From Pirellula sp. (GTDB lineage Bacteria > Planctomycetota > Planctomycetia > Pirellulales > Pirellulaceae): a stretch of 60,715 nucleotides of DNA. Numbering within the stretch: the stretch's first letter is position 1; the number at the start of each line of letters is the position of its first letter. Where the stretch lies: assembly GCA_021299695.1 (NCBI GenBank), contig JAJTEK010000015.1, positions 1 through 60,715 of the forward strand, written 5' to 3'. A program made the translations under genes and the position numbers. This document shows, in pieces, positions 11,717 to 58,390 of the stretch. The notes under the pieces were generated by a model that did no database searches, was not told where the DNA came from, and worked only from the letters and a program-made list of their open reading frames with translations.

Positions 11717-11794
11717 CCAAAACTCTCGGTTCAAGCTCGAAGCCACTGCTGCCTTCACTTCATTTTGCCACCTGCCTCGGAGCCTTGCTCACTC

Positions 11795-12572: not shown

Positions 12573-13859
12573 ATGGAACGTCTGATCCCCGTCTTAGGAC
12601 TATGCGTAATGGTTGGCATCGCTTGGTCGATCAGTTCCGACCGACGCCGTTTTCCTGTGAGAGTCGTCGTCGGTGGCTTGCTGATGCAATTCCTCCTCGC
12701 GGTTCTGGTCCTGCGATCCGAAATCGGGCAATCGATCTTCCAATCCATCGGCAACTTGTTTACCAACCTGCTCGATTGCGTCGACAAAGGTGCTGGATTC
12801 GTCTTTGGTGAAGGTGGCGTTTCGACCCCGTATGGATATAAGGATCCGGTCACCCCTGCCTACAAAGTCCACTTGGTGGCCTTCAAAGTCCTACCGACAA
12901 TCATCTTTTTCTCCTCCCTCATGTCGGTCTTGTACTACGTCGGTGCAATGCAGAAACTTGTGGGTGCAATCTCCTTTGTCATGCAGAAAACGCTCGGCAC
13001 AAGCGGCGCCGAAACCCTCTCGGCAGCGGGCAATATCTTTGTCGGGCAGACCGAAGCTCCCCTGCTCGTTCGTCCCTACATCAACACGATGACACGATCC
13101 GAACTCATGGCCGTCATGGTCGGCGGCTTTGCTACCATCGCTGGCGGTGTCATGGCCGCCTACGTCGGACTGGGTATCAGCCCGGTCCACTTGCTAACGG
13201 CCAGTTTAATGTCGGCACCCGCGGCGCTGGTGATCGCCAAAATCATGCAACCTGAAGTCGATCGACCCCTGACGCTTGGCAAGGTCGAGATCACCCCGCC
13301 CATGGAAGCCACCAACGTGATCGATGCAGCGGCCCGAGGTGCCAGCGATGGAATGACCCTAGCCCTGAACGTCGCTGCCATGCTGATCGCCTTTCTGGGG
13401 CTGATCTATATGCTCGATTCGAGCTTGGAAGCAATCACGCAATGGATGACTCTCAAAACCACCGGTACCGCCTACCGATTAAACTTCACCCAAATGATGG
13501 GCTGGATCTCTCGACCCTTCGCTTGGCTCATGGGAATCGAAAACAAGGATCTTCCAATCGCAGGCGAAATCCTCGGCAAACGAATCGTCACGAACGAATT
13601 CATCGCCTACCTGGATTTAAATGCAAAGCCTCAATCGGCCGATCAAGCCCCTGCAATCTCAGAACGAACCAAAACGATTCTCACCTACGCTCTTTGCGGT
13701 TTTGCGAATGTTGGATCGATCGGGATTCAGATCGGTGGCCTCGGACCCTTGGCCCCAGATCGCCGAGCTGATCTAGTCCGATTGGGTGTTCGCGCAATGA
13801 TCGGTGGACTGTTGGCTTGCTACATGACCGCATGCTTGGCTAGTATCCTGATCCCATAA
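12573..13859 (+). CDS. nupC: NupC-type concentrative nucleoside transporter
   Basis: This is an inner-membrane symporter that takes up nucleosides with H+ or Na+ (CNT family). The 428 residues carry the family landmarks: an N-terminal domain of three helices, FFSSLMSVLYYVGAMQKLV, the GAETLSAAGNIFVGQTEAPLLVRPYI block forming the substrate site, the gating-domain MTLALNVAAMLIAFLGLIYML, and the C-terminal YALCGFANVGSIGIQIGGLG. GTG at 12564 is an alternative start. A cytidine deaminase gene follows 43 bases later, so the pair likely imports and deaminates pyrimidine nucleosides. Confidence 0.93.
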   Translation: MERLIPVLGLCVMVGIAWSISSDRRRFPVRVVVGGLLMQFLLAVLVLRSEIGQSIFQSIGNLFTNLLDCVDKGAGFVFGEGGVSTPYGYKDPVTPAYKVHLVAFKVLPTIIFFSSLMSVLYYVGAMQKLVGAISFVMQKTLGTSGAETLSAAGNIFVGQTEAPLLVRPYINTMTRSELMAVMVGGFATIAGGVMAAYVGLGISPVHLLTASLMSAPAALVIAKIMQPEVDRPLTLGKVEITPPMEATNVIDAAARGASDGMTLALNVAAMLIAFLGLIYMLDSSLEAITQWMTLKTTGTAYRLNFTQMMGWISRPFAWLMGIENKDLPIAGEILGKRIVTNEFIAYLDLNAKPQSADQAPAISERTKTILTYALCGFANVGSIGIQIGGLGPLAPDRRADLVRLGVRAMIGGLLACYMTACLASILIP

Positions 13860-13902
13860 GAAACCTCGTTTCCATCTACCGCGATCGCCGAGGGCTCGCT
13901 CC

Positions 13903-14331
13903 ATGAATACGATCGACCATGCCCAGGCCCTGGCTTATATGGACCAAGCTCGCCAAGTGGCCAGGCGAGCTTACTGCCCCTACAGCAATTTCTCGGTCGG
14001 TTGCGTACTGGTCGATGCCCAAGGCCGCACATTTGAAGGATGCAACGTCGAGAACGCGTCGTATTCGGTCACCCTTTGCGCCGAACGCACCGCAGGCTCT
14101 CAAGCCATCGCCCAAGGCTCACGGGATTGGAAGTCGATTTACATCGTGTCCCCAACCCGCGTGAGCCCATGCGGTACGTGTCGCCAATTCCTCTTCGAAC
14201 TTGCCCCCGACCTGCAAGTCTATCTAGGGGACTTGCAAGCCGATTCCTATATCGGACCGACGCCGATCCGGGAGCTACTTCCCATGGCGATGGATCTTCA
14301 GCAGACGGTCCTGCCGCACCGCAAATCGTGA
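13903..14331 (+). CDS. cdd: Cytidine deaminase
   Basis: The zinc enzyme deaminates cytidine and deoxycytidine for pyrimidine salvage. Catalytic motifs are intact: CAERTA (zinc Cys and catalytic Glu) and PCGTCRQFLFE (the two further zinc Cys). FSVGCVLVDAQGRTFEGCNVENASY is the substrate-binding block. The 142 residues fit the short homotetrameric class. The gene follows the nucleoside transporter by 43 bases and is probably co-transcribed. Confidence 0.96.
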   Translation: MNTIDHAQALAYMDQARQVARRAYCPYSNFSVGCVLVDAQGRTFEGCNVENASYSVTLCAERTAGSQAIAQGSRDWKSIYIVSPTRVSPCGTCRQFLFELAPDLQVYLGDLQADSYIGPTPIRELLPMAMDLQQTVLPHRKS

Positions 14332-28593: not shown

Positions 28594-29292
28594 CTAGGCA
28601 CTGTTTTTTCGAAAGGATTCAATACGACCATCGGACATCGTCGCGATGAAGTCAGCAAACGGAAAGATTCGATTGTCATGCGTCACAACGATCACAGCGC
28701 GATCGCTTCCCGATGCTACCTGACCGAGGAGTTCCATGACCTCATGACCCGTCTCGGCATCGAGTGAAGCCGTCGGCTCATCGCTGATGACGATCTTTGG
28801 ATTATGAACCAGCGCTCGAGCGATCGCTACACGTTGCTGCTGTCCCCCCGAAAGCTGATTCGGGTACTTTAGCTTGTTGCTCTCCATCCCCAAGCGATCG
28901 AGCAAAACCGACGCTTGACGCTTGGCGGTCGCAAGCGTGACGCCTTGGACAACCAGCGAGACGGCAGCATTTTCAACGGCCGTCAGACTCGGTAGCAAAT
29001 TGAATTGCTGGAAGATAAATCCCAAGTGATCCGCGCGAAACCTTACCACCCGACTGCGACGCATCTTGGTGATCTCCTGATCCAAGATCCGCACATACCC
29101 CTCCGTGGCGCTCAAGAGTCCTGCGATGATCGAAATCAAAGTCGTTTTGCCGCAACCACTCGGACCGACCAAGAACGTGGTGGCTCCAAGAGGAACCTGC
29201 CAATCGATCCCGTGCAAAACCCGCTGCCTGACACTCCCTGTGCCAAAATCTTTGATCACCCCTTTGCATTCGACAGCAAACTCCATCGGCAT
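28594..29292 (-). CDS. ABC transporter ATP-binding protein (DevA/LolD/MacB-like)
   Basis: This is the nucleotide-binding subunit of the exporter. It has 232 residues with Walker A GPSGCGKTT, Q-loop FIFQQFNLLPSLTAVENA, signature LSGGQQQRVAIARAL, Walker B IVISDEPTASLD and the switch His in VIVVTHD. The composition is that of the DevA/LolD group, which works with FtsX-type permeases. It is 21 bases from the permease gene and 14 bases from the adaptor gene. Confidence 0.95.
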   Translation of the reverse strand: MPMEFAVECKGVIKDFGTGSVRQRVLHGIDWQVPLGATTFLVGPSGCGKTTLISIIAGLLSATEGYVRILDQEITKMRRSRVVRFRADHLGFIFQQFNLLPSLTAVENAAVSLVVQGVTLATAKRQASVLLDRLGMESNKLKYPNQLSGGQQQRVAIARALVHNPKIVISDEPTASLDAETGHEVMELLGQVASGSDRAVIVVTHDNRIFPFADFIATMSDGRIESFRKNSA

Positions 29293-30453: not shown

Positions 30454-31793
30454 TCAGGCCACCATTGGTCGATCGCAACTGCTAACTCCTGGGCAACCCT
30501 CGGGTGGGTCGTGGCAAGATTCAGTTCTTCATGCGGGTCGGCAGCCAAGTCATACAATTCCACAACCCCATCTTTTTCAATCGATGGATTCGGAACAATC
30601 AACTTCCAATTCTCCCGAATCGCCCAACGCCAACGCAAATTCTCCTTAGGTACATCAAGATTGTTGGCGTTGTGGGTGAAACACTCGCCAAAAACGATTT
30701 TTCGCGAAGCTCTTGCTTCGGCATCCAACAAATCAATTCCTGGAAGGTCCTTGGGGGATGGTATTCCAATAGCCTTTAAGAGCGTAGGCATTAAATCGAT
30801 GCTGTGTGCGAAATCACTTGAATCCTGAGCCGAAATCTTACCCGGCCAACGCAGCATGATCGGAGTTCGGACTCCACCCTCATAAGGCGACTGCTTGGAC
30901 TTGGCCGCATACCTCGATTGCACCGGATCTTGAATCCAACCGTTGTCGGTGACGTAGACTACCAAGGTGTCTTTCTCAAGCCCCTTGGACTCTAGCATGC
31001 CCAATAGATCTCCGACCGTTTGATCAAACCACTCGACGTTCGCCCAATACTTGGCGATCGTCTCGCTTGAGGTAAGCGGCTTGGTGCGATCGAGATACTT
31101 CTTCGGAGGATTGTGCGGATCATGCGGCAACATCGGTGCATACCAAACCATCCAAGGGTTCTTTTGCTCCGTGGCCATGTCGATGAACTCTTCGATCGGC
31201 TGGAGCGTTTTGCGTCCGATTTGCAAGCCGTCGTCGCCGTGGCGATCCCCACGCGTCATCCCATGGGTAAACCCACCGTGCGAATAATGCCCCTGCCAAA
31301 ATTTGCCCGTCTGCAACGTCAAATAGCCGTGGTCCTTGAGCACTCCGGGCAAAGTCGCGACAGCTTTCATGTGCTGATTCATGCGATCTCGGCCCGACCT
31401 AAAAGCCTCCGATTCCTGGAAAGCTCTGCCCGAGAGTCCTGGTACCGTCGGTGGGTCGTTGCTGGTGATCTTGTGGTCATGCGGATAGCGTCCTGTCAGA
31501 ATGGTCGCCAAGCTAGGGCAACACAAACTCGACGGAACATAGCCTCGTCGGAAGGTCAAACTATCGGCAGCAAGTCGATCTAAATGGGGAGTCTTTAGAT
31601 GCGGATGACCCATGAATCCATAGTCGGTCCAAGCTTGATCGTCCGAGACGATCAGAACGATGTTGGGTCTCGTTGCGACGGATTCCTCAGACTGAGCCGT
31701 CTGCTGTGCCAAGCAGACGAAAAGACCTACGAACAATCCGACGAAAAACCCAAGGGTGCGATACAGGTTTCGCAAGGATTGTTGGTATTGCAT
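30435..31793 (-). CDS. Secreted sulfatase with a CCPSL variant active-site motif
   Basis: This is an alkaline-phosphatase-fold sulfatase that should cleave sulfate esters in the periplasm. A hydrophobic N-terminal segment (about 12-29) exports it. The metal site is seen in PNIVLIVSDDQAWTDYG (Asp 51 and 52). The formylglycine region is SLCCPSLATILTGRYPH: the Cys at 91 has the required C-x-P, but the usual Arg of CxPxR is Leu. The rest (YVTDNGWIQDP, GGVRTPIMLRWPG, LYDLAADPHEELNLA) is typical. Its ATG shares a base with the secA stop (TAATG) and its end overlaps the permease gene. Substrate is unknown; planctomycete sulfatases often act on marine polysaccharides. Confidence 0.93.
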   Translation of the reverse strand: MQYQQSLRNLYRTLGFFVGLFVGLFVCLAQQTAQSEESVATRPNIVLIVSDDQAWTDYGFMGHPHLKTPHLDRLAADSLTFRRGYVPSSLCCPSLATILTGRYPHDHKITSNDPPTVPGLSGRAFQESEAFRSGRDRMNQHMKAVATLPGVLKDHGYLTLQTGKFWQGHYSHGGFTHGMTRGDRHGDDGLQIGRKTLQPIEEFIDMATEQKNPWMVWYAPMLPHDPHNPPKKYLDRTKPLTSSETIAKYWANVEWFDQTVGDLLGMLESKGLEKDTLVVYVTDNGWIQDPVQSRYAAKSKQSPYEGGVRTPIMLRWPGKISAQDSSDFAHSIDLMPTLLKAIGIPSPKDLPGIDLLDAEARASRKIVFGECFTHNANNLDVPKENLRWRWAIRENWKLIVPNPSIEKDGVVELYDLAADPHEELNLATTHPRVAQELAVAIDQWWPECSPSH

Positions 31794-34700
31794 TAGACTT
31801 GCTTTCGCATGCAGCAGTTTTTGAATTTCTTACCCGAGCCGCACGGGCATGGGTCGTTGCGCGAGGCCTTCTCGCCCCGATTGCGGATCGTGACAGGCTC
31901 GGCGGGAGGTGCCCCTGCTTGGTCGGCCGCTTTGATGTCTTCGATCTGCTCTTCGGACATGTATTTTGAATCGTCGAATGCATCGTGCCGAGCACTGGTC
32001 TCTACAAAGGAGCTTTCGACCATCCCTTCCTCAATGGCCTCCATGCGGAAGATCACATCGGTAATCTGCTCGCCGATCGAGAGCCACATTTGATCGAACA
32101 ATCGCATCCCTTCGCGTTTGAACTCAACCTTCGGATCCATCTGCCCCATGCTGCGGAACCCGACGCTCGACCGGACATGGTCCATCGCCAGCAAGTGATC
32201 CTTCCAGCTCGAGTCCAAGGTCTGCAATAAGACGGTGCGTTCCATCCGACGAATCTCTGGATGGTAGCGATCGTCGAAGGCCTGGCTGAGCTTGCCGCGG
32301 CATTCATCGCGGGTCATCTTGCTGAGCTCCGCTGCGCTTCCTTTCCATCCCAATTCGGTTTGCATCCACTGTGCCAACGACTCAGCAGAGTTTGAACCCG
32401 TGGCAAACTCGGACATTCGTTTCGATTCGTTGCGGCCAAAGACCCCGTCGAGCTTCGATAGGGCTGTCTCCCAAACCGAGTGCGATTTGATCGCCTGAGC
32501 CTTACTGATTTCCATCAAAACATCGAAGGGATGATCGGGATCGACCCGGAGCTTATCCAAAACATTAGGGTCCTGGAAGCGAGCCGAAGCCCATTGCGCT
32601 AAGGCTTCGCCGTCGACGGTGAAACTGTTCGGACCGGTTTGGGTACGAAAGCGATGGAAACCGACCAATACCGGGAACTGAACCTCCCGGTCGAAATAAG
32701 CTTTTTCGGCAGCATCGAGCATGATCTTTTTAATCGACTCAGGCTCGGCTCCCTTGAGCTCAGCAGGATCGACTGTGATCCCGAACTTGCTTTTCATCCA
32801 AGACGACAGCATGTTATTGCCGTACTCCGGATCGAGGAAGCTATTTCCTTCGCTCAAGTCGATCCCATCGATGAAGGAATTCGCTTTGCCGATGAACTCT
32901 TCGTCCATGCGATCCCGCTCGAACTTTTTGAGCATTCCAACGGTGTAATTGGTGTTGAAGCGATTGTTGACCCACTTGGCCATCGCATCCCAATTCCACT
33001 CGGATTGCTCCTCTTCGCTAGGCAGATTCTCATCGATCGCATCGAGGATCTGAGTCTGGGCAACGCGCTCGGCTTGATCCTTGGCGTACACAACAGCCAC
33101 CGAGGGCTCAATGCCACGGAAGTCTTTGGCTTCGAGTTGCACACCGAGTCTTGGGCTGGCCCAACGGGCATAAGACTCTGGGCCGAACATCGGGTCGCTG
33201 AATTGATCGACGTTCGATTCGATTTGCTCCCTGAGTTGCTGCATCACCAACTCGCGGCAACTTTTTCCTTCTAGGACCTGCTGGCGATAGGTGTAGACCC
33301 GCTTTCGCTGAAAGTCCATGACTTCATCGTACTCTAGGAGATTTTTGCGGGCTTCAAAATGCCGCTCTTCGACCTTCTTTTGAGCACCCGATATCCGCTT
33401 TGATACATAAGGGCTCTCGATCGCCTCTCCATTGCCCATGCCCATGCGTTGCATCATGTTTCGAACCCAGTCCCCAGCGAAGATTCGCATGAGGTCGTCT
33501 TCGAGAGACAGAAAAAAGCGGCTCGAGCCCGGGTCTCCCTGGCGGCCGCAACGACCGCGAAGCTGAAGATCGATCCGACGTGACTCATGGCGCTCGGTAC
33601 CGATGACATACAAGCCACCCAGGTCGCGCACGAAGTCCCCTTCCTGCTCCATGTTTTCGGTTTCTTTGATCTGCTTGACCAGTCCTTCCCACTCCTCCTT
33701 GGGGACATCCAGACGCGTCTGGTACTTGTTCTGGAGCTGAGCCCAAGCCTTGGTTTCGGGGTTTCCGCCCAGGATGATGTCTGTACCACGGCCCGCCATG
33801 TTCGTGGCGATCGTCACTGAATGAACGCGACCGGCTTGAGCGATGATATCGGCCTCGCGTTTGTGGGCCTTGGCATTGAGCACCTGGTGCTTGACACCTC
33901 GGCGTTCGAGCAACTCGGAGAGTTTTTCGCTTTTCTCGATCGAAACTGTGCCGATCAGAATCGGCCGACCCGCTCGCTCGATGTTTTGAATATCCGACTT
34001 GGCAATCTCGACAACCTCCTGGGAGTCCGCTTTTTTGAACGTCAAGCTCGTGTCGGTCTCGCGGCTGATATTGCCAATTAAAGAACCCTTCTTGCGGTCT
34101 TTGAACTCGATCGTGTCGTGCTTGTTGACCCGATCGATCTCCTCGGCTACCGCTTCGTACTTCTCCTTCTCGGACAAATAGATCGCGTCGGGAAACTCGA
34201 TCCGTTGCAAACGTCGGTTCGAAGGGATCTCCACGACCCCGAGATTGTAGATCTTGCTGAACTCCTGCGCTTCGGTCATCGCAGTTCCAGTCATCCCCGA
34301 TAGCTTCTTGTAAAGCTTGAAGAAATTCTGAAGGGTGATCGTCGCTAAGGTCTGTGTTTCCTCTTTGATTTTTACTCCTTCCTTGGCCTCGACCGATTGG
34401 TGCAAGCCGTCGGACCACTGGCGTCCCTCCATGAGCCGTCCGGTAAACTCGTCGACAATGATGATCTCACCGTCTCGGTTGACATAGTTCACATCCCGAC
34501 GATACAGATGGTGGGCCTTGAGCGCATTGTCGATCAAGTGGGGCCATTCCATGTTGCCGACGGTGTAGAAACTTTCTACGCCAGCTAAACGTTCTGCTTC
34601 GCGAACCCCTGCATCGGTCAGGTTGACCGTGTGGTCCTTCTCGTTGACGATGAAATGCTCCTCTCGAACAAGCCCTCTGGCAACTCGATCCGCTTCGGTG

Positions 34701-35494
34701 TATTTGGCCAAGTCTCGCATCGCCGGGCCCGAAATGATCAACGGAGTACGAGCTTCGTCGATCAAGATATTGTCGACTTCGTCGATGATCGCATAATGCA
34801 ACGGGCCTTGGACCTGCTGCATGTAACTCGGGAAGCGATCGTCCCCGCGGGATGCCATACGCATGTTGTCACGCAAGTAATCGAAACCCAATTCGTTGTT
34901 CGTCGCGTAAGTAATATCCGATGCGTAGGCCTTCTGACGCTGATCATTATCCATTCCGCTCTGGATGTTCCCGACGGTCAATCCCAAGCCCATGTACAGA
35001 GGCGCCATCCACTCCATGTCCCGACGTGCCAAGTAATCGTTGACCGTCACGACATGCACGCCTTTGCCTTCCAAGGCATTTAGGTAGGCAGGAAGTGTTG
35101 CCACGAGCGTCTTGCCCTCACCCGTGATCATTTCGGCAATATTTCCACCGTTGAGGACCATCCCGCCGACGAGTTGGACGTCGTAGTGACGCATTTTAAG
35201 GAATCGGCGGCCACCCTCGCGGCAAACCGCGAAGGCCTCGACCAAGATGTCCTCGAGAGTTTGTCCGTCGACTAGCCGTTGGCGGAAACGAGCGGTTTGT
35301 TCTTGAAGTTCCCCGTCGGAAAGGGCCATCATACGCGGTTCGAGTTCACCAACTCGCCGGGCCAATTCGCCGTAACGTTTGAGCTGGCGGGAGTTTGCAG
35401 ATCCGAAGAGGACCGTGATGCCACGGTCAAACCCGGTCAGAACCCCATTGACCGCATTGGTGGTGCCTTCCCAGATTTTCTCGATAAATTCCAT
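31793..35494 (-). CDS. secA: Preprotein translocase ATPase SecA, very long form
   Basis: SecA is the motor that pushes preproteins through SecYEG. Walker A TGEGKT (124-129) and DEVD (238-241) are intact, with the preprotein cross-linking region, [31 protein letters not shown] and the [14 protein letters not shown] arginine-finger block. The C-terminal end [17 protein letters not shown] is the zinc-binding SecB/lipid-contact tail. The length (1233 against about 900 in E. coli) comes from an insertion of about 40 residues ([16 protein letters not shown]...) before the second nucleotide-binding fold and from a large extra segment (about residues 760-1060) in the helical wing/scaffold area, before [18 protein letters not shown]. 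It opens the six-gene run. Confidence 0.96.
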
Positions 35495-45944: not shown

Positions 45945-48260
45945 TTAAACCATTGTGCGAAGAACCCTAGCAGCGGCTTGGGCGCCGAGACTCGGCTCAA
46001 GAGCCGTGTGCGCGATGCCCGATACGACCCGAGTGATGTTGTGGTCGACCCTCGACTCGACACTCCAGTCTTCTCCCTGAGCACTGGTGATGTAGATCGA
46101 CAGAGTACGATGTCCGCTGCCGGGTCGCTCCCCGACGATATGAAGGATCTGCATCCGACCTTCTCTGGAGCGAAACATCCTTTCGCCAATCCGATAGCCG
46201 GCCCGAACGCGTCCGGATCGGACGACCAATACCTCGGGAGCCAATTTTTTGCCGTCTTTAGCCAGCGCGTTTCGCAGATGATCGATGAGCTCTTTAGCTT
46301 GCTGGCTTGAACTGTTGGCCAATGCATTGAGTCCATCGGATAAAACCAACAGCGTGTCGTATCGATCGGCGTGTTGGTCCCTTAATCTCTCCAACTTGCG
46401 AACAGAATCCGGATGCAATTGCTCACCGGTAACGGGGTGTAGGATGTAGTCATTACGATTGAGCGAAAGGGTTTGTATCGGAATCGCTCCTTGGATTGTC
46501 GTTTCGAAGCCTTCGGGTAATTCCGCCCAAATGCATTTCTTTGCGTCGTCGTAAATGCGATGGATGTGCAGGTCTAAATCCTTGGGAAGCTCGGATGCAC
46601 TCTCCGCGTAGCCTTCGGAGATAAACACACCTCGTTGACGAACCTGCGCGATACGATCCTTGGCCTCGCCAAGAATCTCTTCGTCGGGTCGCTTATCAGA
46701 ACGTCGTCGGCAGTAGGCCAGATAGACCCAAGCTGGATCGCCAAAATGTTCGGTGGGTTGTCCTTGCGGATCGATCACGCCTAACTGCTTATAAAAGTCC
46801 CACATCGCATCGTTGACACGATAACCAAATTTCTCGCGGATCCGGACATGGTCGTGATAGCCGGTCGTCAAATATCCGAGCATGGGATCGATACGGGTTG
46901 GCAAGGCCATGAGATATCCAGGATTCGCGGGCATGATTTGATCGATGCACCATTCCAAATCATCGAGCGTCACATCCATGTGGAGTGTCGTGCAGATATC
47001 AAGTCCGATCATCAATCCATGCAATTTACCCATGACGATGTCCTCTAGGCAGCATCGCACGAGCTGTTCGCGGTTGCGAAACACCTCTGGTCCGATGAAA
47101 CCCGCAACGTCGTTGAGGTGGACCCATGGTTCGGAACTCTCACCTCGCTGCTGCCTGGACAGTGCCAAAGTATTGTTCAAGCTTCTCGCTAGTCCGTATT
47201 TACGAGATTCATGGATGAGCATGTCGGTCCCAAACCCATGGCCATTGGTGAAATCGGCTCCTTGGCCCGTCTCAAAATACAAACCGAACTTACCCTGTTT
47301 GTTCTTTGCGTGTTGCACTAGTTTATCGACAGTCACGTCGAATGTCGCATTGGCTGCATCGGATCCCGCGATGCTCTGAAACCAAAGTGCCGTCGATCCA
47401 GGTTGCGAGAGTTCCAATGCCGCTTGAATGTCTATATGAGCCAAAACGCAATGAGGAATTGTCGAACTGATTCCAAAGGCATCGAGGATTTCTTTCAGCG
47501 TCGATTCGACGAGGGCGACGGATTCAGGTTCGCTCGACACGGGATTCGTTCCCACAAGAACATCGCCAACAGCGTATGCGAATGCATTGAACACTTGCCA
47601 GCGAATATCATCGGGATGATCTGTTGGCGAATTTGGCTGGATTCGAGCACCCATGTACCCTCGGGATCCTAGCTGAGTGCCAGGAAGTGGATTGAACACC
47701 TTGCGGCCGACTTCAATCAACTCCTGATTGCTCATGAGCTTGACCACACATGCGATCGAATCGCTGGACAAACCGGGGCGAATCGCGTGGATTTCCTGCT
47801 CGCTTTGCTCGAGTAGAAACGCCTTGAGCTCTGCCAGTTTCCAGGCTTGGATCTCTTGGGTCTGCGTTTTGCTTGGCGCCAATCCAAGCACCGAGAGCAT
47901 TTTGTCTTCAAAGGGACGATGGGAATCGATCTGTTCTAAGGTGGTTTGCTCGAGAAGCCTGCGAGCCAGTTGACGCTCAGCGGGTGTACGAGCGGACACT
48001 CCAAGGATTTCGTCCCCTTCTTTGTATTCGTTGGCTGCCCCCAGAACGCGACGGTACCAATCGACATCCCAGCCCCCTGCGATGCGATGGACGTAGGCGA
48101 TGACATCCTCGTTTTCCAAGCCTTCGGGCAAATTCTGCAGCGAGAGTTCACGAGGGCGGTCCTGTGCTGCTGCGTCCAGCCCGATGCAGCTTGCCATGCC
48201 AGCAAACATTCCCGTTTGCAATACCTTACGTCGTGTCAGTCCGATGCTCGGTGGTCTCAT
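45945..48260 (-). CDS. Tat-signal EutB-EutC fusion, ethanolamine ammonia-lyase
   Basis: The protein joins both subunits of the adenosylcobalamin-dependent lyase that converts ethanolamine to acetaldehyde and ammonia. The N-terminus is a twin-arginine-type signal (LTRRKVLQTGMFAGMASC). The EutB part (about 40-530) has GARIQPN (the Arg and Gln of the E. coli SARLQPND block), LYFETGQGADF with the conserved Glu, and FIGPEVFRNREQLVRCCLEDIVMGKLHG. The EutC part (about 613-771) has LVLSDGLNALA, GRVRAGYRIG, HIVGERPGSGH and DHNITRVVSGIAHTAL. The variable EutC N-terminus is shortened. No microcompartment, EutA or cobalamin genes are nearby. It follows the propeller gene by 9 bases. Confidence 0.9.
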   Translation of the reverse strand: MRPPSIGLTRRKVLQTGMFAGMASCIGLDAAAQDRPRELSLQNLPEGLENEDVIAYVHRIAGGWDVDWYRRVLGAANEYKEGDEILGVSARTPAERQLARRLLEQTTLEQIDSHRPFEDKMLSVLGLAPSKTQTQEIQAWKLAELKAFLLEQSEQEIHAIRPGLSSDSIACVVKLMSNQELIEVGRKVFNPLPGTQLGSRGYMGARIQPNSPTDHPDDIRWQVFNAFAYAVGDVLVGTNPVSSEPESVALVESTLKEILDAFGISSTIPHCVLAHIDIQAALELSQPGSTALWFQSIAGSDAANATFDVTVDKLVQHAKNKQGKFGLYFETGQGADFTNGHGFGTDMLIHESRKYGLARSLNNTLALSRQQRGESSEPWVHLNDVAGFIGPEVFRNREQLVRCCLEDIVMGKLHGLMIGLDICTTLHMDVTLDDLEWCIDQIMPANPGYLMALPTRIDPMLGYLTTGYHDHVRIREKFGYRVNDAMWDFYKQLGVIDPQGQPTEHFGDPAWVYLAYCRRRSDKRPDEEILGEAKDRIAQVRQRGVFISEGYAESASELPKDLDLHIHRIYDDAKKCIWAELPEGFETTIQGAIPIQTLSLNRNDYILHPVTGEQLHPDSVRKLERLRDQHADRYDTLLVLSDGLNALANSSSQQAKELIDHLRNALAKDGKKLAPEVLVVRSGRVRAGYRIGERMFRSREGRMQILHIVGERPGSGHRTLSIYITSAQGEDWSVESRVDHNITRVVSGIAHTALEPSLGAQAAARVLRTMV

Positions 48261-50206: not shown

Positions 50207-50357
50207 TCCCTCGGATCGAGAAATTTCCCTGAAAACGACCTAAAAATCGGCTATCCCCCAAGCGATCTGTTGAAATCAACACGCATCTGTAGGAATCTGA
50301 TAAGAGACCGAAAAACCACCACACGACCGATATCTCACTTGTTCGTATCGTAATTTC

Positions 50358-51848
50358 ATGGCGCGAGAAACCGTATCGAAATACATTTCGCTCCGAAGAA
50401 ACCATCCGGCCTGGTCCTTACTAGCTTCCCCCAAGGGCCCGCTGATTCTCGCAAGCCTCAAGAGCTTGATCGACTCGAGCCCAGGAGGCGTGGTCCTTGA
50501 GGAGGCCGTCGAACGCCTGGCTACGGTCTTTGCCGATTATGCCAACGACTCGGAATTCGATCTCGGAGAGGATCACCCTTTGGCTGCCCGACGCGAAATC
50601 CGGCAATGGATTAAACGGGGTCTAATCGTCGAGCGCGACGGCAAAATTCTTGCCACCGATGCATTTCAAAGAGCGTTGCTATTCCTCGACTCGCTCGAAG
50701 ACCATTCGATGACCTCCACCGCATCGCGGCTGGCTACTGTTCAACGTGCCATCGAGTTGCTCGAAGTCCAACTCAGCCGCAGCCAAAAGGACCGAGAGCG
50801 TGCGATCCAAGCTCGTATGGAACTTCTAGCTATCGAACTCCAAGCGGTCCGAACCGGCGTGTTCGATGTGCTCGATGGGAAACAAGCCGAAGAGGGGATC
50901 CGAGAGGTGTACCAATTGGCGATGAGCCTACAAGCCGACTTTCGACGTGTCGAGGACTCCTATCGCCAAGCCGATCGCCAATTGAGGCAACGCATCATTT
51001 CGGAAAACCAAAACCGAGGACAAATCGTCGACGAGCTTCTCAACGGACATGAACAACTCGTCCAGACCGTCGAAGGCCAAGTCTTCGAGAGCTTTTACGC
51101 CCAGCTCGTCAAGTCCTCGGAGCTCCATGACATGAAGTCCCGAATCCGGTCCATTCTCGAAAATGGGAATTCCGACAAAGCGCTTTCCAGAAAGCAAAAA
51201 GCAGAGCTCAAGCAACTCGTCTCGCGACTCGTCTATGAATCCGAACGCGTCATCCAAGCGCGCTCGCACAGCGAACGCGACGTCCGCGGTTTCCTCAAGT
51301 CAGGATTGGCCAACGAACAACTCCGCGTCGGGGCCTTGCTCCAAGAAATCTTTCAAGCCGCCCTTGAGCTCGATTGGCAATCGCAAAAAATTCGCAGGAC
51401 CGATAGCCCGTTGCCTCCGATTGCCATCTCCATGGGAAACCTGCCCCTGGTCGAGCGTCTACTCCCGAAACAAATCGAAAACGACTCGGAGAGCCGACTC
51501 GAACTCGAGGAAACGCATGCGGATCCGGCCGGTATGGGGGACGAATTCTGGAACGCCTATCGCGCCATGAATCGTGAGGAAGTCTTCAGGAATACCCTGG
51601 AAATTCTTGAGCGAGACGGCCAAAAACTCACCATCGGTCAGTTGGCAAAAGCCATCCCTCCTACGCACGATCTCGAAACGCTCTCCTTTTGGCTCGCCAT
51701 GGCCCGACAAGCCGGCGTGGAACTCGGCCAAGGAGCCCAGTCCATCGACCTGCATGACCAACGCGATGGGGACACGCGGTTCGAGGTACCTTGGGTGGAA
51801 ATGGCTATCGAAGATGTCCAGGATTTGAAGGTGGAGTCTTTGGAATGA
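50358..51848 (+). CDS. jetA: Wadjet protein JetA (DUF3375, kleisin-like)
   Basis: This is the first gene of a complete Wadjet anti-plasmid system. JetA is the kleisin-like bridge of the SMC complex. The 496-residue protein opens with MARETVSKYISLRRNHPAWSL and a winged-helix-like N-terminal part (about 1-115), followed by a long helical region (about 120-310) rich in Glu, Gln and Arg (coiled-coil type) and a C-terminal winged-helix part. This order is typical of DUF3375 type I JetA. Its stop overlaps the jetB start (ATGA). Upstream there is only 151 bases to arfB, so the operon promoter must lie there. Confidence 0.92.
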   Translation: MARETVSKYISLRRNHPAWSLLASPKGPLILASLKSLIDSSPGGVVLEEAVERLATVFADYANDSEFDLGEDHPLAARREIRQWIKRGLIVERDGKILATDAFQRALLFLDSLEDHSMTSTASRLATVQRAIELLEVQLSRSQKDRERAIQARMELLAIELQAVRTGVFDVLDGKQAEEGIREVYQLAMSLQADFRRVEDSYRQADRQLRQRIISENQNRGQIVDELLNGHEQLVQTVEGQVFESFYAQLVKSSELHDMKSRIRSILENGNSDKALSRKQKAELKQLVSRLVYESERVIQARSHSERDVRGFLKSGLANEQLRVGALLQEIFQAALELDWQSQKIRRTDSPLPPIAISMGNLPLVERLLPKQIENDSESRLELEETHADPAGMGDEFWNAYRAMNREEVFRNTLEILERDGQKLTIGQLAKAIPPTHDLETLSFWLAMARQAGVELGQGAQSIDLHDQRDGDTRFEVPWVEMAIEDVQDLKVESLE

Positions 51849-52570
51849 ACAGTATCTTTGATCGATTGGCAGGAGATATCCCGGACGAAGATCCACAGAA
51901 AAACCAAGCCAATGCTTATTCGCAATCCGTCGAACCAAGCGTCTCTGCCCAGACCCTCGCCGCAGGACCGATCCGGCGCGAATTGAAGATCGCAGTCCAA
52001 GAACTCCTTCGCCAAGGCTACATCGAGGAAAGCCAACGCCACGATCTGTTCCGTAGCGTCAGCGTTCAAATCGACGCGATCAACCAAACACTCGCACCCC
52101 TGGATCTGACCCTCAGGGTCGACTCGCATCGAGGTGTGGCTTTCCTGCAGATCGCTAAATCCGACCTAGACGAGTCGAGTCAACAGGATGGCTGGAGCCA
52201 TCCGCTGGTCCGCAAACAACGACTGACCCTTGAGCAATCTCTGCTGGTTGCGATTCTACGGCAAGCCTTTGCGATGCATGAACAAGAGTATGGCGTTGGC
52301 CAGTCGGCCTCTAAACTCTCGATCGACGAACTTCTACCGACTTTCCTGACTTACTTCGGCGACACCGGAAGCGATGCAAAGAACGAAAATCGATTGCTGC
52401 AACTGCTCGACCAACTCAAGACGCACGGCATTGTATCGGAGCTCGATTCGAAACAGGAGGTCGTCATTCGACCTCTGATCGCGCATCTCGCCAACCCGGA
52501 GTCCCTTTCGGCTCTCCTGTCGGTTCTAACCGAAGCCAAGGCGACTGCAACAAACCAAGGAGACGAATGA
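51845..52570 (+). CDS. jetB: Wadjet protein JetB (DUF4194, KITE-like)
   Basis: JetB is the small KITE-type subunit that binds the kleisin. The ATG at 51845 overlaps the jetA stop (ATGA) and gives 241 residues; a longer frame from 51791 reads into jetA and is rejected. The protein holds two winged-helix-like parts: KIAVQELLRQGYIEESQRHDLF (about 40-60) and LTLEQSLLVAILRQAFAMH, then a C-terminal NRLLQLLDQLKTHGIVSELDS, as in DUF4194 proteins. It ends in an ATGA overlap with jetC. Confidence 0.9.
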   Translation: MNSIFDRLAGDIPDEDPQKNQANAYSQSVEPSVSAQTLAAGPIRRELKIAVQELLRQGYIEESQRHDLFRSVSVQIDAINQTLAPLDLTLRVDSHRGVAFLQIAKSDLDESSQQDGWSHPLVRKQRLTLEQSLLVAILRQAFAMHEQEYGVGQSASKLSIDELLPTFLTYFGDTGSDAKNENRLLQLLDQLKTHGIVSELDSKQEVVIRPLIAHLANPESLSALLSVLTEAKATATNQGDE

Positions 52571-55500
52571 TGCCACAGCGAGCCAAATCTGCCGAGGCCA
52601 GCTCCAAAACTGCGGAGATCCAATCTCCAGAGGATAGCGAGACGATGCCCATCGCCCAGGATGAGGCGTCGTTTGTATTGAGCCGACTGGAGGTCTACAA
52701 CTGGGGACCCTTTCGTGGAATGCACCGAGCGGAATTCGATCCTCGTGGCACGGCGATCATCGGGCCGACAGGCAGTGGAAAAACAACGCTTGTCGATGCC
52801 CTGATGACGCTGCTGGTTCCCTCCCCTCGCTATAACCTCGCATCGACCGGTGGTCATGAAAGCGATCGAACACTGATCGAATACGTGCGGGGCGTCTTGG
52901 GGGGCGATGGTGCCGATGGTCGCCAAGAGGTCGCACGGCCCGGCAAGACCCTCAGCGGTATTTGCGCAACCTACGCCGGGGGCAAGCAGACGATCAAAAT
53001 CGCAGGGATATTCTGGACCGAGGGGACTGGCAATGCTGCGGATGATTTGAAGCGGCGTTGGGTCTTTTCGATGGCTCCCGACCAAAGCTTGGACGTTTGG
53101 CTGCGGTTGCTCCACGAGGACGGGATCCGCGAGTTGCTCAAGGTAGGTCGAGAAACGGCCAATCTCAGGTTCTTTGAAAGCAAACGATCCTATCTTGAGC
53201 GGATTCGCAAGTTCTTTGATGTTGGCGAAAATGCCTTTACCCTTCTGAACCGCGCCGCGGGCTTGAAGCAACTTAACAGCATCGACGAAATATTTCGCGA
53301 ATTGGTCCTCGAGGATCGATCCGCTTTCGATCGGGCCGTCGAGGTCGCTGCGGAATTCGATAACCTCTCGGACATTCACGCCGAACTGCAATTGGCCGAG
53401 CGCCAACAAGAGTCGCTCCTGCCTGTGTTTGAGGAACATCAGAGGCTTCTGAAATCGCAACGCAAAACCGAGAAACTCCGGATTCTCAAACGCATTCTGC
53501 CGATCTGGTTTGCGCGAATCAGCCAACAAAAATGGGAAGCCGAGATTCTGCGACTCTCGGGGGTCATCGACCAAGGCCAGCGCGAATTGACCCAGATGGA
53601 ACAGCGAGCCTCGCTGGCGCGATCCGAGGTCGATTCCCTGCGTGAACGTTACCTGGAACTCGGTGGAAACATCATCGGTGAATTGGAAAACACCATCGCT
53701 GCCCAGCGGAAACTCGTCGACGAACGGAAAAAACAAGCGGTGCTCTATCGCCAAATGGTATCCCGTTTCGGATTGAACGACGATCTTTCAGAAGACATGC
53801 TTCGAGCCAATCAGATCGAACTGCGCAAGCAGCAGCAAGCCATGCAAGCGCAGCATGAGTCGCAGCAATCGATGACGCTCGGTTCGATGTCCAGGCTCCA
53901 AGTCCACGAACAACGCGTCGAAGAATTGACCGAAGCGATCCGAAAGGTCAAGCAGCGACCTGGCTCGAATATCCAAATTCCTTACCAGGAATTTCGCTCC
54001 GAATTGGCATCCGAATTGTCACTCTTGGAATCGGATCTTCCGTTCCTAGCCGAGCTGATTGAGGTCAAAGCCTCCGAGGCACCCTGGCGCGGTGCGATCG
54101 AACGAGCCATCGGCTCCGAACGCCTCCGAATCCTCGTTCCGGCAAACAGTATCCAAGACGCTTTGCGTTGGGTCAATCAACGCGATAACCGCTTGCACAT
54201 TCGGCTTCAATCGGCCGAGACTACCACGCAACGTGTCAGTTTCTTCGAAGATGGTTATGTCCAAAAGCTAAACATCAAGCCCCATGCGCTCAAGGATGCT
54301 GCTGTGCGATTGCTGTCTGCTCGCGATCTGCATTGCGTACCGACGAGCGATGTTCTGAGAAAGACCGAAAACGCTCTGACGATCGAAGGGATGATGTCAG
54401 GTCGGCAAGGGAAATTTGAGAAACAAGACCAGCGCAGACTCGATCGAGACTGGATGACAGGTTTCGATAACAAGGACCAACTCGATGCGCTTGCCAAGCA
54501 ATGCGTCGAGGAATCGGCCTTGGCCCAAGACGCAAAACAAACCGTGCAATCGGCGCAACTGAAACTCAAGCAAATCGAAGAAACCCTCCGTATCCTCGAC
54601 GCTCTACTGAACCTGGACTTCTCCACGATCGACTTGCCAAACGCCGAGTCGCTCATGCAGGGATCGCTTCTGCGCCTCGACGGTTTGCTCGATCCGAAAT
54701 CCGATGCGAGCCACGCGAAATTGCAATACGAAGACCAGAACGATCAGCTCGAGACGCTGCGCCAGAGAATCTCCGACCATCGCTCCGAAATCGCCGTTTT
54801 CAACGACAAGCGTAGCTCGGCAGAGCAAGCTTGCCAGGACGCTCGGATACGCTCGGAAAGTCGTCTCGAGGATCACGAAGAAGCCCTGGCGGCCAAGCAC
54901 CTGAGGGTCGAAGCAGAGGTCCCCCCGCAGCGACTGATCGAATCCGAAAGACGCTTGGCCAAAGAGATCGAATCCCAACTCGATGACCAACGCAATCGCG
55001 ATGCCGATATCGAACAACAGCTTGTCCGAAGAATGGAAAATGCAAAACGTGTCGATACCGGCGCGCTGGTCGAAGTCGGTTCGGTCCTCGACGACGTTCC
55101 GGTCTATCTTGAACGCCTAAGGGTTTTGACCGAGGAAGCGCTGCCTGAAAAACGGACGCGATTCCTGGAGTACCTCAACCGCTCGTCCGACCAAGGGGTC
55201 ACGCAATTGCTCGCGAGCATCGACGAAGAGGTCGATGCGATCGAAGAACGGATCGCAGAGCTAAACCACACGCTGGTCAAAGTCGATTTCCGTTCCGGGC
55301 GTTACCTGCAACTACTGCCTCAGCGCATGAAAGACGAACGACTTCGAACGCTCAACATCGCCATGCAAAAAGTTCGGCACGCTGCCTTGAAAGACGATGG
55401 TGGTGAGAGCCACTTCAAGGCATTGCAGGAAATGGTAGCGATCCTGCGTGATGCAGGTGAAAATCGCCGTTTACAAGGATCCAAAGCGCTTCTGGATCCA

Positions 55501-55911
55501 AGATTTCGTTTGCAGTTTTTTGTCGTCGAGGTCGATCGAAAGACCGGTGACCGCTCTCCACCTCGCACCGGGTCGCAAAGTGGTAGCGGCGGCGAAAAGG
55601 AATTGATGGCTAGCCACATCCTGACGGCCTCATTGAGCTACGCCTTGTGCCCTCCGGCCGCGACCCGACCACTCTATGGGACCGTCGTTCTCGATGAAGC
55701 GTTCTCGAAAAGCTCTCCGTCAGCCGCGACAAGAATCATCGAAGCGTTAAGAATCTTTAGCCTGCATCCAATCTTCGTGACCCCCAATAAGGAAATCGGG
55801 CTGCTGAAAAAACACACTCGAAAAGTCGTCTGCGTGCAAAGGCCAGGAAAAGAAGCCAGTTTGGCTTCCATCTCCTGGGAGAAACTCGAAGAAATCGCGC
55901 AAAGCCAATGA
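52567..55911 (+). CDS. jetC: Wadjet protein JetC (SMC-like ATPase)
   Basis: JetC is the DNA-loop-extruding motor of the system. The protein has 1114 residues. The N-terminal head has VYNWGPFRGMHRAEFD and Walker A GPTGSGKTT (66-74). Two long coiled-coil segments flank a hinge-like part (about 480-640, including SEAPWRGAIERAIGSERLRILV). The C-terminal head has the signature-like SGSGGEKELMASHIL (1005-1019) and Walker B TVVLDEAFSK with Asp 1043 and Glu 1044. The hinge-side QYQ pattern of SbcC is absent, and the order fits COG4913-type JetC. It overlaps both neighbours by ATGA. Confidence 0.93.
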   Translation: MMPQRAKSAEASSKTAEIQSPEDSETMPIAQDEASFVLSRLEVYNWGPFRGMHRAEFDPRGTAIIGPTGSGKTTLVDALMTLLVPSPRYNLASTGGHESDRTLIEYVRGVLGGDGADGRQEVARPGKTLSGICATYAGGKQTIKIAGIFWTEGTGNAADDLKRRWVFSMAPDQSLDVWLRLLHEDGIRELLKVGRETANLRFFESKRSYLERIRKFFDVGENAFTLLNRAAGLKQLNSIDEIFRELVLEDRSAFDRAVEVAAEFDNLSDIHAELQLAERQQESLLPVFEEHQRLLKSQRKTEKLRILKRILPIWFARISQQKWEAEILRLSGVIDQGQRELTQMEQRASLARSEVDSLRERYLELGGNIIGELENTIAAQRKLVDERKKQAVLYRQMVSRFGLNDDLSEDMLRANQIELRKQQQAMQAQHESQQSMTLGSMSRLQVHEQRVEELTEAIRKVKQRPGSNIQIPYQEFRSELASELSLLESDLPFLAELIEVKASEAPWRGAIERAIGSERLRILVPANSIQDALRWVNQRDNRLHIRLQSAETTTQRVSFFEDGYVQKLNIKPHALKDAAVRLLSARDLHCVPTSDVLRKTENALTIEGMMSGRQGKFEKQDQRRLDRDWMTGFDNKDQLDALAKQCVEESALAQDAKQTVQSAQLKLKQIEETLRILDALLNLDFSTIDLPNAESLMQGSLLRLDGLLDPKSDASHAKLQYEDQNDQLETLRQRISDHRSEIAVFNDKRSSAEQACQDARIRSESRLEDHEEALAAKHLRVEAEVPPQRLIESERRLAKEIESQLDDQRNRDADIEQQLVRRMENAKRVDTGALVEVGSVLDDVPVYLERLRVLTEEALPEKRTRFLEYLNRSSDQGVTQLLASIDEEVDAIEERIAELNHTLVKVDFRSGRYLQLLPQRMKDERLRTLNIAMQKVRHAALKDDGGESHFKALQEMVAILRDAGENRRLQGSKALLDPRFRLQFFVVEVDRKTGDRSPPRTGSQSGSGGEKELMASHILTASLSYALCPPAATRPLYGTVVLDEAFSKSSPSAATRIIEALRIFSLHPIFVTPNKEIGLLKKHTRKVVCVQRPGKEASLASISWEKLEEIAQSQ

Positions 55912-57068
55912 GATCGCCCGCGGAGCTTCAATCCAAACTGCGAAGGAACTGGGAACACGCCGCCTTGCGTGAATCGCGTCTGCTCGGATTCGCTGGTGCT
56001 TGGCCCTGGACCCTCTCGATCGGTAAACCCAGCTCCCGCAGGATCCGAGATCAGCTCGATGATGTCAAGCGTCACCTCGAGCGCTGGAGGCAAGTCAACG
56101 TAGGCAAGGTCCATTGGGAACAGGTCGTGTATCGACACGTAAGCCAACCCGTTGGTATTCCGGTCGCTTGGCAATTGGATAAACCATCCGAGTGGATCGA
56201 AGCCATCGGAGATCCTCGGATTCGAGCTGAGTTTCGCGATATGGGACTCTTGGTCGCCAATTCCGCAGAGGTTTTCCGTTCGCTGCTGATCCGCAGGCGA
56301 TCGCTCTGGAGCTCGAAAGCACCCGAGGAAGTTCTCCAAGCGACCCGATTGGCGCTGGCGTTGCAACCCGGCTGCGCCAGGGGCCGGCCCCTTAGGACAT
56401 TGGCGATCGAAGGGATCGACACGAAGTTCTTCGAAAGGAACCTCGCATTGATCGTCGCACTGCTCGACGCTCGGTTCGATGAAGAACCGAGCCGACTTGG
56501 ACTAGAGACCTTTTTGGGTGCACCCGAGCAAGCAGATCATTGGCTCTTGGTGGTCGATTTGGATGGAAGCCTGTTACCCTTCGAAAAGCTACGGGTCAAA
56601 TCTTCGGAGCTGGCGGCTAGGCCGCTGCCGGGCAAAAGATTACTTGTCGTTGAAAACGAAACCTCCCAGCATCAGTTGTGCTCTTTGCCGGAAACCCTAG
56701 CGGTATTGGGAGCAGGTTTCGATCTGAATTGGATGCAGGCTGCTTGGCTATCCGAAAGGCAGGTAGGATATTGGGGTGACATCGATACATGGGGGCTCCA
56801 ATTCCTATCCAAAGCTCGCTTGGCTGCCCCCCGGTTGGATGCGCTGCTGATGGGTACAGAGGTATTTGAATCGCACCGACACGCAGCGGTCAAAGAGCCA
56901 GTCAGCGCCGGTGAAGAGCCCCCGGTGGGATTAGGGCCCCAAGAGATTGAGCTCTATCGATTCTTGCTTGGGCAGGACAAGCGGCGGCTTGAGCAAGAGT
57001 ACTTGCCAACGGAATTGGTCCATCGACAGTTGCATGCTTGGGTCCAAGGAGCCGATCGCTTTGCTTAG
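55908..57068 (+). CDS. jetD: Wadjet protein JetD (Toprim-like nuclease)
   Basis: JetD is the nuclease that cleaves circular DNA held by the complex. The N-terminal half (about 1-200) is of the DUF3322 type, with the IEGIDTKFFERN block around residue 168; the C-terminal half is a DUF2220/Toprim-like domain with LLVVENE (Glu 249) and GYWGDIDTWGLQFL (Asp 291 and Asp 293), the catalytic metal site of the topoisomerase/primase fold. The length of 386 residues is normal. It is the last gene; its stop lies 8 bases from the convergent dockerin gene. Confidence 0.93.
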   Translation: MRSPAELQSKLRRNWEHAALRESRLLGFAGAWPWTLSIGKPSSRRIRDQLDDVKRHLERWRQVNVGKVHWEQVVYRHVSQPVGIPVAWQLDKPSEWIEAIGDPRIRAEFRDMGLLVANSAEVFRSLLIRRRSLWSSKAPEEVLQATRLALALQPGCARGRPLRTLAIEGIDTKFFERNLALIVALLDARFDEEPSRLGLETFLGAPEQADHWLLVVDLDGSLLPFEKLRVKSSELAARPLPGKRLLVVENETSQHQLCSLPETLAVLGAGFDLNWMQAAWLSERQVGYWGDIDTWGLQFLSKARLAAPRLDALLMGTEVFESHRHAAVKEPVSAGEEPPVGLGPQEIELYRFLLGQDKRRLEQEYLPTELVHRQLHAWVQGADRFA

Positions 57069-57076: not shown

Positions 57077-58390
57077 CTAGATGACCGGTTTGTTGATCGA
57101 GTCGAGCGACACGCCGAGGGCCTTGAGCCTAGCGATGATTTGGTCGATCGACAGGGGTTTGCCCGCTACTAGGGCGGCCTTTGCCTCCATGTAGATCCTC
57201 AATGCGACATCGCGATCGATCCCGAGACGTCCAAGGAGCGGTAGCACTTGCTCAAGGACGGCGGCACCATCGGGCCTTGGTCGTACCACGGGGAGAGTGT
57301 TTGCAGGCGGAGCGTGCAACCTTTCCCAGTCGATTCCGAGATCTTCGAGGCGGCTTCGGACCACTTGAAGATCCAGAGGCAAACCGGCATCGATGCCTGC
57401 GTAGATTTCATTGCGGATCGTTTCGAGGATCTCTGTGGAAACCCCCGCGTTTTTGAGTCGAGAGAGGATCGACTCGGCGATCGGTTCGGTCACAACGATT
57501 GTCGGCATGATCGGCCGTTCTGGACGCTCTGGCATTTCAGGACGTTCTGGCATCTCAGGACGCTCTGGCATTTCAGGACGCTCTGGCATCTCAGGACGGG
57601 CTGCTTGGGGCAAAATCGTATCGACGTCGACCCCCAACTGAGCCAATCGATCACGGACTTGCATGAGATCCAACGGGGAGCCGGATTGGTGGGCCGAGAG
57701 CAATTCGTTTGAGATCGTAGCGATGGTGCTCGGTGAGACGTTGAAGGCTTCGAGTCGGTTCGAGAGCGCGTCGATAAACTTTTCGAGACGTTTTAGTTCT
57801 CGGGATTCTTGCGGTTGTTCCGATTCGTTTTCGGACGGATCGTCGGAAGATGGGTTATCGTCTTGTCTCCATTTCAGGATTCCGTTGACGACATGGTCAC
57901 CTAGTTCGGGTCGGCCACCAGAGCGGAGCGTATCGAGGGCGGCGTGCGCGTCGTGGAGGGAGAAGTTCGGGGGTAGGAGGTTCGAGGCGATGGCTTGTTC
58001 GATGCGTTCGATTCGGCGATCGAGTTCGACGCGGCTTGCGCGTTGGGTGCCGGAGCCCAACGAAGTTTGGGCGTTTAGGTGGTTGATCACGCCGAGTGCG
58101 TCGAGGGGGGAGAGCGAATTGTCGGCATCCACATCGACAAGGGAGAGAATGGCAGTCTCGTTGGGTCGCGATGGACCGTTGGAGAACGATTGGTTGATTC
58201 GATCGATGACGACCAACGCATCGAGGGGGGTGACCGAGCCGTTTGCGTCTGCGTCTTCGGGAAGCATGAAGTTGTGGAAGCAATCGCCTGCCATCACGGT
58301 TCGGTTTTCGAGGTTTTCGAGGATCAACCGGCGATTGCTCGAACGTCGTTGGGAGCCGTCAAACTTGCTATTGGACCTGGTCGATCGCAT
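57077..58390 (-). CDS. Dockerin-type cell-surface protein with PERPEM repeats
   Basis: This is a predicted exported protein of 437 residues. The N-terminal RRLILENLENRTVMAGD is a variant of the planctomycete LExR/VMA sorting motif found just before the mature part of surface proteins. Two dockerin-like EF-hand calcium repeats follow: DADANGSVTPLDALVVIDRIN and DVDADNSLSPLDALGVINHLN. A middle helical region leads to a repeat of PERPEM (about 270-290), five or six copies, then a second helical part with conserved-looking segments RLKNAGVSTEILETIRNEI. Binding partner is unknown. It faces away from proS. Confidence 0.85.
   Translation of the reverse strand: MRSTRSNSKFDGSQRRSSNRRLILENLENRTVMAGDCFHNFMLPEDADANGSVTPLDALVVIDRINQSFSNGPSRPNETAILSLVDVDADNSLSPLDALGVINHLNAQTSLGSGTQRASRVELDRRIERIEQAIASNLLPPNFSLHDAHAALDTLRSGGRPELGDHVVNGILKWRQDDNPSSDDPSENESEQPQESRELKRLEKFIDALSNRLEAFNVSPSTIATISNELLSAHQSGSPLDLMQVRDRLAQLGVDVDTILPQAARPEMPERPEMPERPEMPERPEMPERPERPIMPTIVVTEPIAESILSRLKNAGVSTEILETIRNEIYAGIDAGLPLDLQVVRSRLEDLGIDWERLHAPPANTLPVVRPRPDGAAVLEQVLPLLGRLGIDRDVALRIYMEAKAALVAGKPLSIDQIIARLKALGVSLDSINKPVI

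Follow-up and report, generated by a model that had tools for sequence, protein, structure and literature searches.

Identification of a type I Wadjet operon

The window examined here is the whole of a 60,715-nucleotide contig of Pirellula sp. (GenBank assembly GCA_021299695.1, contig JAJTEK010000015.1; C79), which belongs to a 5.49-Mb genome assembled into 229 contigs (completeness 95%, contamination 2.45%). It was found to carry a four-gene operon, jetABCD (coordinates 50358 to 57068), that is almost certainly an intact chromosomal type I Wadjet system, with a mechanism expected by analogy to the type I systems already studied. The genes are adjacent, in the order jetA-jetB-jetC-jetD and all on the + strand, with four intact frames, and each of the three junctions is an ATGA stop/start overlap (51845–51848 for jetA/jetB, 52567–52570 for jetB/jetC and 55908–55911 for jetC/jetD), as had been read from the DNA before any database search. 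A single JetC match and a single JetD_C match were detected in the genome (E up to 0.001), both of them in this operon.

The jetA gene (50358–51848) encodes a kleisin-like subunit of 496 amino acids (aa) that belongs to DUF3375 and was matched by PF11855 (302 bits), by the PADLOC model JetA1 (653 bits) and by a JetA chain in the Protein Data Bank (PDB; 9qxt_E, E=1.5e-134). It is followed by jetB (51845–52570), which encodes a 241-aa KITE subunit (DUF4194) with matches to PF13835 (101 bits), JetB1 (281 bits) and the JetB chain 8dk1_E (E=1.4e-57); the list of open reading frames (ORFs) gives this gene a TTG start (51791–52570), and the length of 241 aa is that obtained from the ATG at 51845 that is coupled to jetA. 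The 1114-aa SMC-like ATPase encoded by jetC (52567–55911) was matched by PF13555 (AAA_29; 74 bits), PF13558 (SbcC_Walker_B; 63 bits) and JetC1 (1349 bits), as well as by the solved JetC chains 8dk2_C (1033 bits) and 8as8_A (1022 bits), and the 386-aa Toprim nuclease encoded by jetD (55908–57068) by PF11795 (DUF3322; 127 bits), PF09983 (JetD_C; 131 bits), JetD1 (523 bits) and the JetD chains 7til_A (E=1.9e-119) and 8q72_M (E=6.7e-110).

The Pfam matches of all four proteins were above the cut-offs, those to the JetA, JetB and JetD models (101 to 302 bits) being far beyond chance, and the same applies to the best PADLOC models, which were JetA1, JetB1, JetC1 and JetD1 (281 to 1349 bits). As the best scores for type II or III models were far lower (JetC2, 16.9 bits; JetD3, 19.3 bits), both the family and its type are settled. 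The sequence-only reading had recognised JetA (DUF3375), JetB (DUF4194), an SMC-like JetC and a Toprim-like JetD, and its four names agree with the matches in Pfam, where DUF3375, DUF4194 and DUF3322 were all above cut-off, in PADLOC and among PDB sequences; its more cautious term "type I-like" can now be firmed to type I. All four proteins also align near full length to solved proteins deposited as JetA, JetB, JetC and JetD. The PDB entries 8dk1-3, 7til, 8as8, 8bfn and 8q72 are taken by us to represent the type I Wadjet systems of Pseudomonas aeruginosa PA14 and Escherichia coli GF4-3.

Wadjet and MukBEF are described as related to each other in a passage of PMC10586767, and JetC matches the SbcC_Walker_B head-domain model above its cut-off (63.1 versus 27 bits) and also AAA_29, while JetB matches MksE at 20.6 bits, below the cut-off of 27. 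These matches might suggest that the operon encodes a condensin with a housekeeping role (MukBEF, MksBEF) or a repair complex of the SbcCD type rather than a plasmid-cutting system. However, SbcC_Walker_B, AAA_29 and MksE are domain models common to the whole superfamily, and no Pfam MukB model was found for JetC at E up to 1. The three motor genes are coupled to a gene for the JetD nuclease, each of the four proteins has Wadjet as its best match over the full length, and a separate ScpA is encoded in all 27 genomes examined for the genus. As the sole match to these families above cut-off is to the superfamily head domain SbcC_Walker_B, MukBEF, MksBEF and SbcCD were ruled out as the family, and a condensin or repair complex without plasmid cutting is a highly improbable identity for jetABCD.

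Conserved residues and predicted mechanism

Three ATPase motifs were located in JetC, namely the Walker A motif GPTGSGKTT (52762–52788; residues 66–74), the ABC signature SGSGGEKE (55579–55602; residues 1005–1012) and the Walker B motif VVLDEAF (55684–55704; residues 1040–1046), which includes Asp1043 and Glu1044, and the positions given earlier for Walker A and for the Asp-Glu pair were correct. In JetD, three acidic residues fall within 56652–56786, Glu249 (56652–56654) together with Asp291 and Asp293 (56778–56786), and Glu249 lies within a stretch that aligns to the chain named JetD(E248A) in PDB 8q72. Of the 64 rows in an alignment, 63 (the window's included) are ungapped at these sites, and all of them carry the same Glu, Asp, Asp triad; one row is gapped at all three sites, and L001, L002 and L070 onward were not used. 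The JetD active site, whose checkable residues had been called intact, is undamaged at the three residues named. Four essential JetD residues are mentioned, though not by name, in a passage of PMC12287153, and three residues were checked in the window's JetD.

The translated JetB starts MNSIFDR, placing an IFDR motif at residues 4–7 (51854–51865). In part of PMC10586767, cross-linking of a type I system that has been studied places an IFDR at the JetB N-terminus among the contacts with JetD. A strict IFDR was seen in just 18 of 63 JetB rows, and the motif is perhaps not defining for type I.

The strains covered in the same part of PMC10586767 as sources of studied type I systems are PA14 and GF4-3. 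The window operon resembles their Wadjet systems in its four subunits, near full-length alignments, ATPase motifs, JetD acidic residues and JetB IFDR, but differs in that its host is a planctomycete. JetC further differs from the solved JetC chains in having 28–32 residues ahead of the first aligned residue, an extension common to near relatives, with BLAST matches in L003, L004 and L006 starting at residue 1. JetD is also homologous to MksG (PDB 8b7f; E=9.3e-11) of the MksBEFG system, for which passages of PMC10586767 and PMC10123090 give Corynebacterium glutamicum as the organism, but MksG is far more distant than the solved JetD chains.

In the studied type I systems, as set out in parts of PMC10586767 and PMC12647877, a dimeric JetABC extrudes DNA and completed extrusion on a small circle switches JetD on; cleavage occurs without sequence preference, and linear DNA and much larger circles escape. 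By analogy, JetA (kleisin), JetB (KITE) and JetC (SMC ATPase) of the window would assemble into a dimeric motor that extrudes DNA loops. When the DNA is a small closed circle, extrusion would reach its end, an event thought to activate the JetD Toprim nuclease, and JetD would then cut the circle without sequence preference, the benefit being fewer small plasmids. Motor assembly, circle sensing, cleavage and plasmid benefit are all predicted here from the published type I systems, and what the sequence itself shows is the genes, their order and coupling, their family, their motifs and a low ratio of non-synonymous to synonymous substitution (dN/dS).

Relatives and origin of the operon

Upstream of jetABCD are a fused EutB-EutC gene, a PQQ-like gene and an arfB-like gene (RF-1 domain, Pfam), and downstream are a gene for a dockerin protein (Pfam) and then proS; the PQQ-like gene and proS were named from their sequence, without a profile scan. 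The nearest named records by JetC were L003–L006 (77–91% identity), from metagenome-assembled genomes (MAGs) titled Pirellula, Planctomycetaceae or Planctomycetota. Five loci correspond to numbered genomes of the genus (L003 to G004, L004 to G001, L005 to G013, L100 to G006 and L047 to G026). JetC of L003, L004 and L005 is 77–81% identical to that of the window, and the four genes lie in the same order downstream of arfB, which directly precedes jetABCD in these three loci and in G018; EutBC and the PQQ-like gene are also upstream in L003–L005. L003 and L005 differ in that neither the dockerin gene of the window nor its proS is matched after jetD (2.8 and 6.8 kb covered, respectively), whereas both flanks of the operon match the window in G018. 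G018 and G014, which belong to the same genus, share EutBC, the PQQ-like gene, arfB and proS with the window in unchanged order and at 87–99% identity.

The search with JetC yielded 67 loci, the majority with titles from Pseudomonadota lineages, as might be seen had a proteobacterial Wadjet region been mis-binned into a planctomycete genome. However, the flanking genes are syntenic in G018 and G014, the arfB-jetABCD arrangement is repeated in L003–L005 and the closest JetC relatives are from Pirellula-group MAGs. Mis-binning was therefore ruled out by synteny, and its probability is negligible.

In a quick JetC tree of 78 rows, which were collected by a search with the window's own protein and carry a long-branch warning, the window groups with L003–L005 (SH-aLRT 100). 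The wider group that contains them has 13 rows (SH-aLRT 100), all planctomycete apart from L013, which comes from a Granulosicoccaceae MAG, and L007, whose title says only "bacterium". Not included in the tree were L001 and L002, which are the window itself, L070–L074 and L076, which are copies of named loci, and open pieces of up to 850 aa; it is presumably this 850-aa filter that removed L006, L063 and L066. As the 13-row group is surrounded mainly by Pseudomonadota rows, along with three from Verrucomicrobiota and two from Actinomycetota, an old transfer of the operon between phyla, in either direction, is likely. The L013 contig is 15.7 kb long, and the position of its JetC inside the planctomycete clade represents either a transfer or a mis-binned contig. 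JetC relatives were present on 15 of 72,556 plasmid records, all at below 60% identity, and no link to a known plasmid was found.

Probable damage and loss in the window's lineage

The ancestor of a small Pirellula clade probably already had the operon at this locus, with damage or loss following in parts of the clade. The four genes were seen open and adjacent in 6 of the 27 genus genomes, namely the window's and those of L003, L004, L005, L100 and L047. In G018, the nearest sibling (arfB 99% identical), the operon (L098, contig C90, at about 8761–14149 on the reverse strand) is damaged: jetA is split over two frames (residues 1–67 and 95–496), and so is jetC (residues 1–845 and 851–1114), whose first piece contains a stop at residue 837. 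These splits may be real damage or an assembly error. In the 76% complete genome G012, the searches recovered the final 83 residues of jetC and fragments of jetD, and nothing more of the operon. A stop reported at residue 383 of the 384 aligned in L003 is near the normal end of JetD, and damage to this gene in G004 was rejected.

A second sibling, G014, carries EutBC, the PQQ-like gene, arfB, the dockerin gene and proS in order, and gave no JetC, JetD_C or DUF3375 match. Between its arfB and dockerin genes (L091, contig C114, at about 4142–4283 on the reverse strand) there is a 79-base match (77%, 59 bits) to window positions 50342–50419, around the start of jetA, and the alignment picks up again at window position 57180, inside the dockerin gene. 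The best of 300 single-base shuffles scored 26.5 bits. The region after arfB was also searched in six genomes of more distant relatives, where the two highest-scoring matches did not exceed 25.6 bits; for one of these genomes the stretch available was just 0.7 kb. Because this remnant of the jetA start persists, the site points to an operon that was deleted rather than never present, though an assembly error is possible.

Selection on the window's copy was assessed from dN/dS (NG86). Against G004, values were 0.058 for JetA, 0.060 for JetB, 0.056 for JetC and 0.111 for JetD, ratios that are rough as dS for the jet genes is 1.5–3.2 and near saturation, and the neighbouring arfB and PQQ-like genes gave 0.054 and 0.073. 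JetA gave 0.050 against G001 and 0.036 against G013, the other three jet genes being saturated in dS. Against G018, values were 0.10 for JetA (both pieces), 0.23 for JetB, 0.17 and 0.04 for the two JetC pieces and 0.16 for JetD, compared with 0.02 for arfB, 0.11 for the PQQ-like gene and 0.10 for EutBC. Such raised values are as expected from a decaying G018 copy, but may also include decay on the window's side.

It is therefore conceivable, and compatible with type I membership, that the window's copy still reads through yet is unused and heading to loss. The broken jetA and jetC of G018, the jetA remnant in an otherwise jet-free G014, and dN/dS against G018 of 0.16–0.23 for JetB, JetD and the front of JetC, above the 0.02–0.11 of the three neighbours, would all fit this course. 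However, all four frames of the window are intact, its dN/dS against the more distant G004 is low and the higher values against G018 may come from decay on the G018 side alone, so that disuse of the window's copy is rather unlikely.

Some observations do weigh against a maintained type I Wadjet in the window. The damage in G018 and the absence of the operon from G014 mean that selection for it is not constant and that the clade can do without it. No NCBIfam model was above cut-off for any of the four proteins, with generic ATPase names for JetC and no row for JetD, and no match taken as a defence gene was seen by PADLOC in nine other ORFs of the window (part of its ORFs), so that a defence island was not found. 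An intact type I Wadjet is still strongly favoured. The sequence-only reading had held that it should be functional; the open frames and low dN/dS against G004 agree with this, but in view of the two siblings function is no more than predicted.

A second JetA/JetC lineage in the genus

The sole surprising part of the analysis is located outside the window. DUF3375 was detected in 22 of the 27 genus genomes and JetD_C in 15, and a second JetC lineage, with 24–30% match to the window's JetC (fragments included), was counted by hand in 15, two of which (G016 and G025) hold just part of jetC. Where examined, in two jetABC clusters and in the jetC and jetD of G053 from another genus, this lineage is type I by PADLOC. 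Its loci comprise jetABC (L105, L106, L107, L110, L111, L118–L120, L122, L123, L125 and L126) and jetC (L121).

In 6 of the 15 genomes (G009, G015, G017, G022, G023 and G024) jetD is on a separate contig (L109 and L112–L116), where its neighbours are housekeeping genes, such as those for an alkaline phosphatase, a PIG-L deacetylase, a DsbD-like protein or a glycine-zipper protein. No JetD_C match was found in eight others (G002, G003, G007, G008, G016, G019, G020 and G021), five of which are at least 95% complete, and in the remaining one, G025, jetD is beside the tail of jetC at a contig end. The surroundings of jetC were read for 12 jetABC clusters in 11 genomes, G003 and G016 not being among these, and no jetD followed jetC in 10 of the 12, each with more than 1 kb following; for G007 and G008, the available sequence runs out within 0.7 kb of jetC.

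JetC is conserved in this lineage. Its motifs GENG[SA]GKS, SGGEK and VDEMF are present in 11 of 11 aligned rows, and the lineage's seven JetDs retain Glu, Asp, Asp. For detached jetD, dN/dS was 0.11–0.17 in four pairs. For jetC it was 0.046 between G020 (jetD not found) and G023 (detached jetD) and 0.13 between G019 (jetD not found) and the second cluster of G024 (detached jetD); two jetC pairs in which both genomes are jetD-less were saturated, and the selection figures thus all involve a jetD-bearing genome. IFDR was absent from all 13 JetB rows of the second-lineage type, including that of the G053 operon, in which jetD is adjacent, hence absence of IFDR does not track absence of jetD.

In the wider family, DUF3375 was above cut-off in 48 of 170 genomes that are at least 90% complete. 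Outside the genus (32 of the 48), JetD_C was on the same contig within 10 kb in 25, on another contig in two and absent from five, whereas inside it JetD_C was adjacent in 3 of 3 window-lineage genomes versus 0 of 13 second-lineage genomes. These are hand counts from related and fragmented genomes, which are not independent trials, and a missing jetD may fall in an assembly gap. Tentatively, and with the odds somewhat against it, the Wadjet motor may be separable from the nuclease in this genus, JetABC serving a function of its own, such as the compaction or positioning of DNA or the retention of circles for a different nuclease, and JetD being an optional, swappable blade.

Other genes in the window

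Nine window ORFs, partly the same as the nine scanned with PADLOC, were examined with Pfam. The fused ethanolamine ammonia-lyase is a 771-aa ORF (45945–48260, − strand) in which EutB occupies residues 69–504 and EutC residues 558–770, and several relatives have a match at the corresponding position. The dockerin-type protein gene (57077–58390, − strand) runs toward jetD, ending 8 bases from it, and its product has RPEMPE-type repeats and a planctomycete extracellular motif at 25.1 bits (cut-off 25.5). A 1233-aa SecA with a SEC-C motif (31793–35494, − strand) heads a − strand run with a sulfatase, an FtsX-like permease and an HlyD-like protein; PADLOC matches to this ORF are located on its SEC-C tail and were not taken as defence. 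Similarly, a "mad3" match at 28594–29292 was read as an ABC-transporter ATPase because it is flanked by a MacB/FtsX-like permease and an HlyD-like protein.

Context and significance

No paper title reporting Wadjet in Pirellula was found in open-licence literature on Wadjet in Planctomycetes/Planctomycetota. In marine biofilms, Wadjet genes are among the transcribed systems, in phyla that include Planctomycetota, according to a passage of PMC10689801, and patchy occurrence of Wadjet is already described in part of PMC10586767. A search of open-licence literature found no report of Wadjet lacking JetD, or of orphan MksBEF/MksG. MksBEF without MksG is known from some Pseudomonas. What is new here is the arfB-jetABCD arrangement in four relatives, with jetA and jetC split in the nearest (G018) and the operon missing from its sibling G014, and the second JetA/JetC lineage with jetD elsewhere or not found.

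The operon in the window is an ordinary one, one more well-formed member of the known type I Wadjet family, and its gene set carries little weight by itself. The value lies in the genus, where copies at a single site range from open to damaged to deleted and occur beside a JetABC lineage whose nuclease gene is elsewhere or was not found, a setting that would allow tests of the cost of Wadjet and of a nuclease-free role for its motor. For Pirellula-type bacteria themselves, the operon may bear on plasmid establishment.

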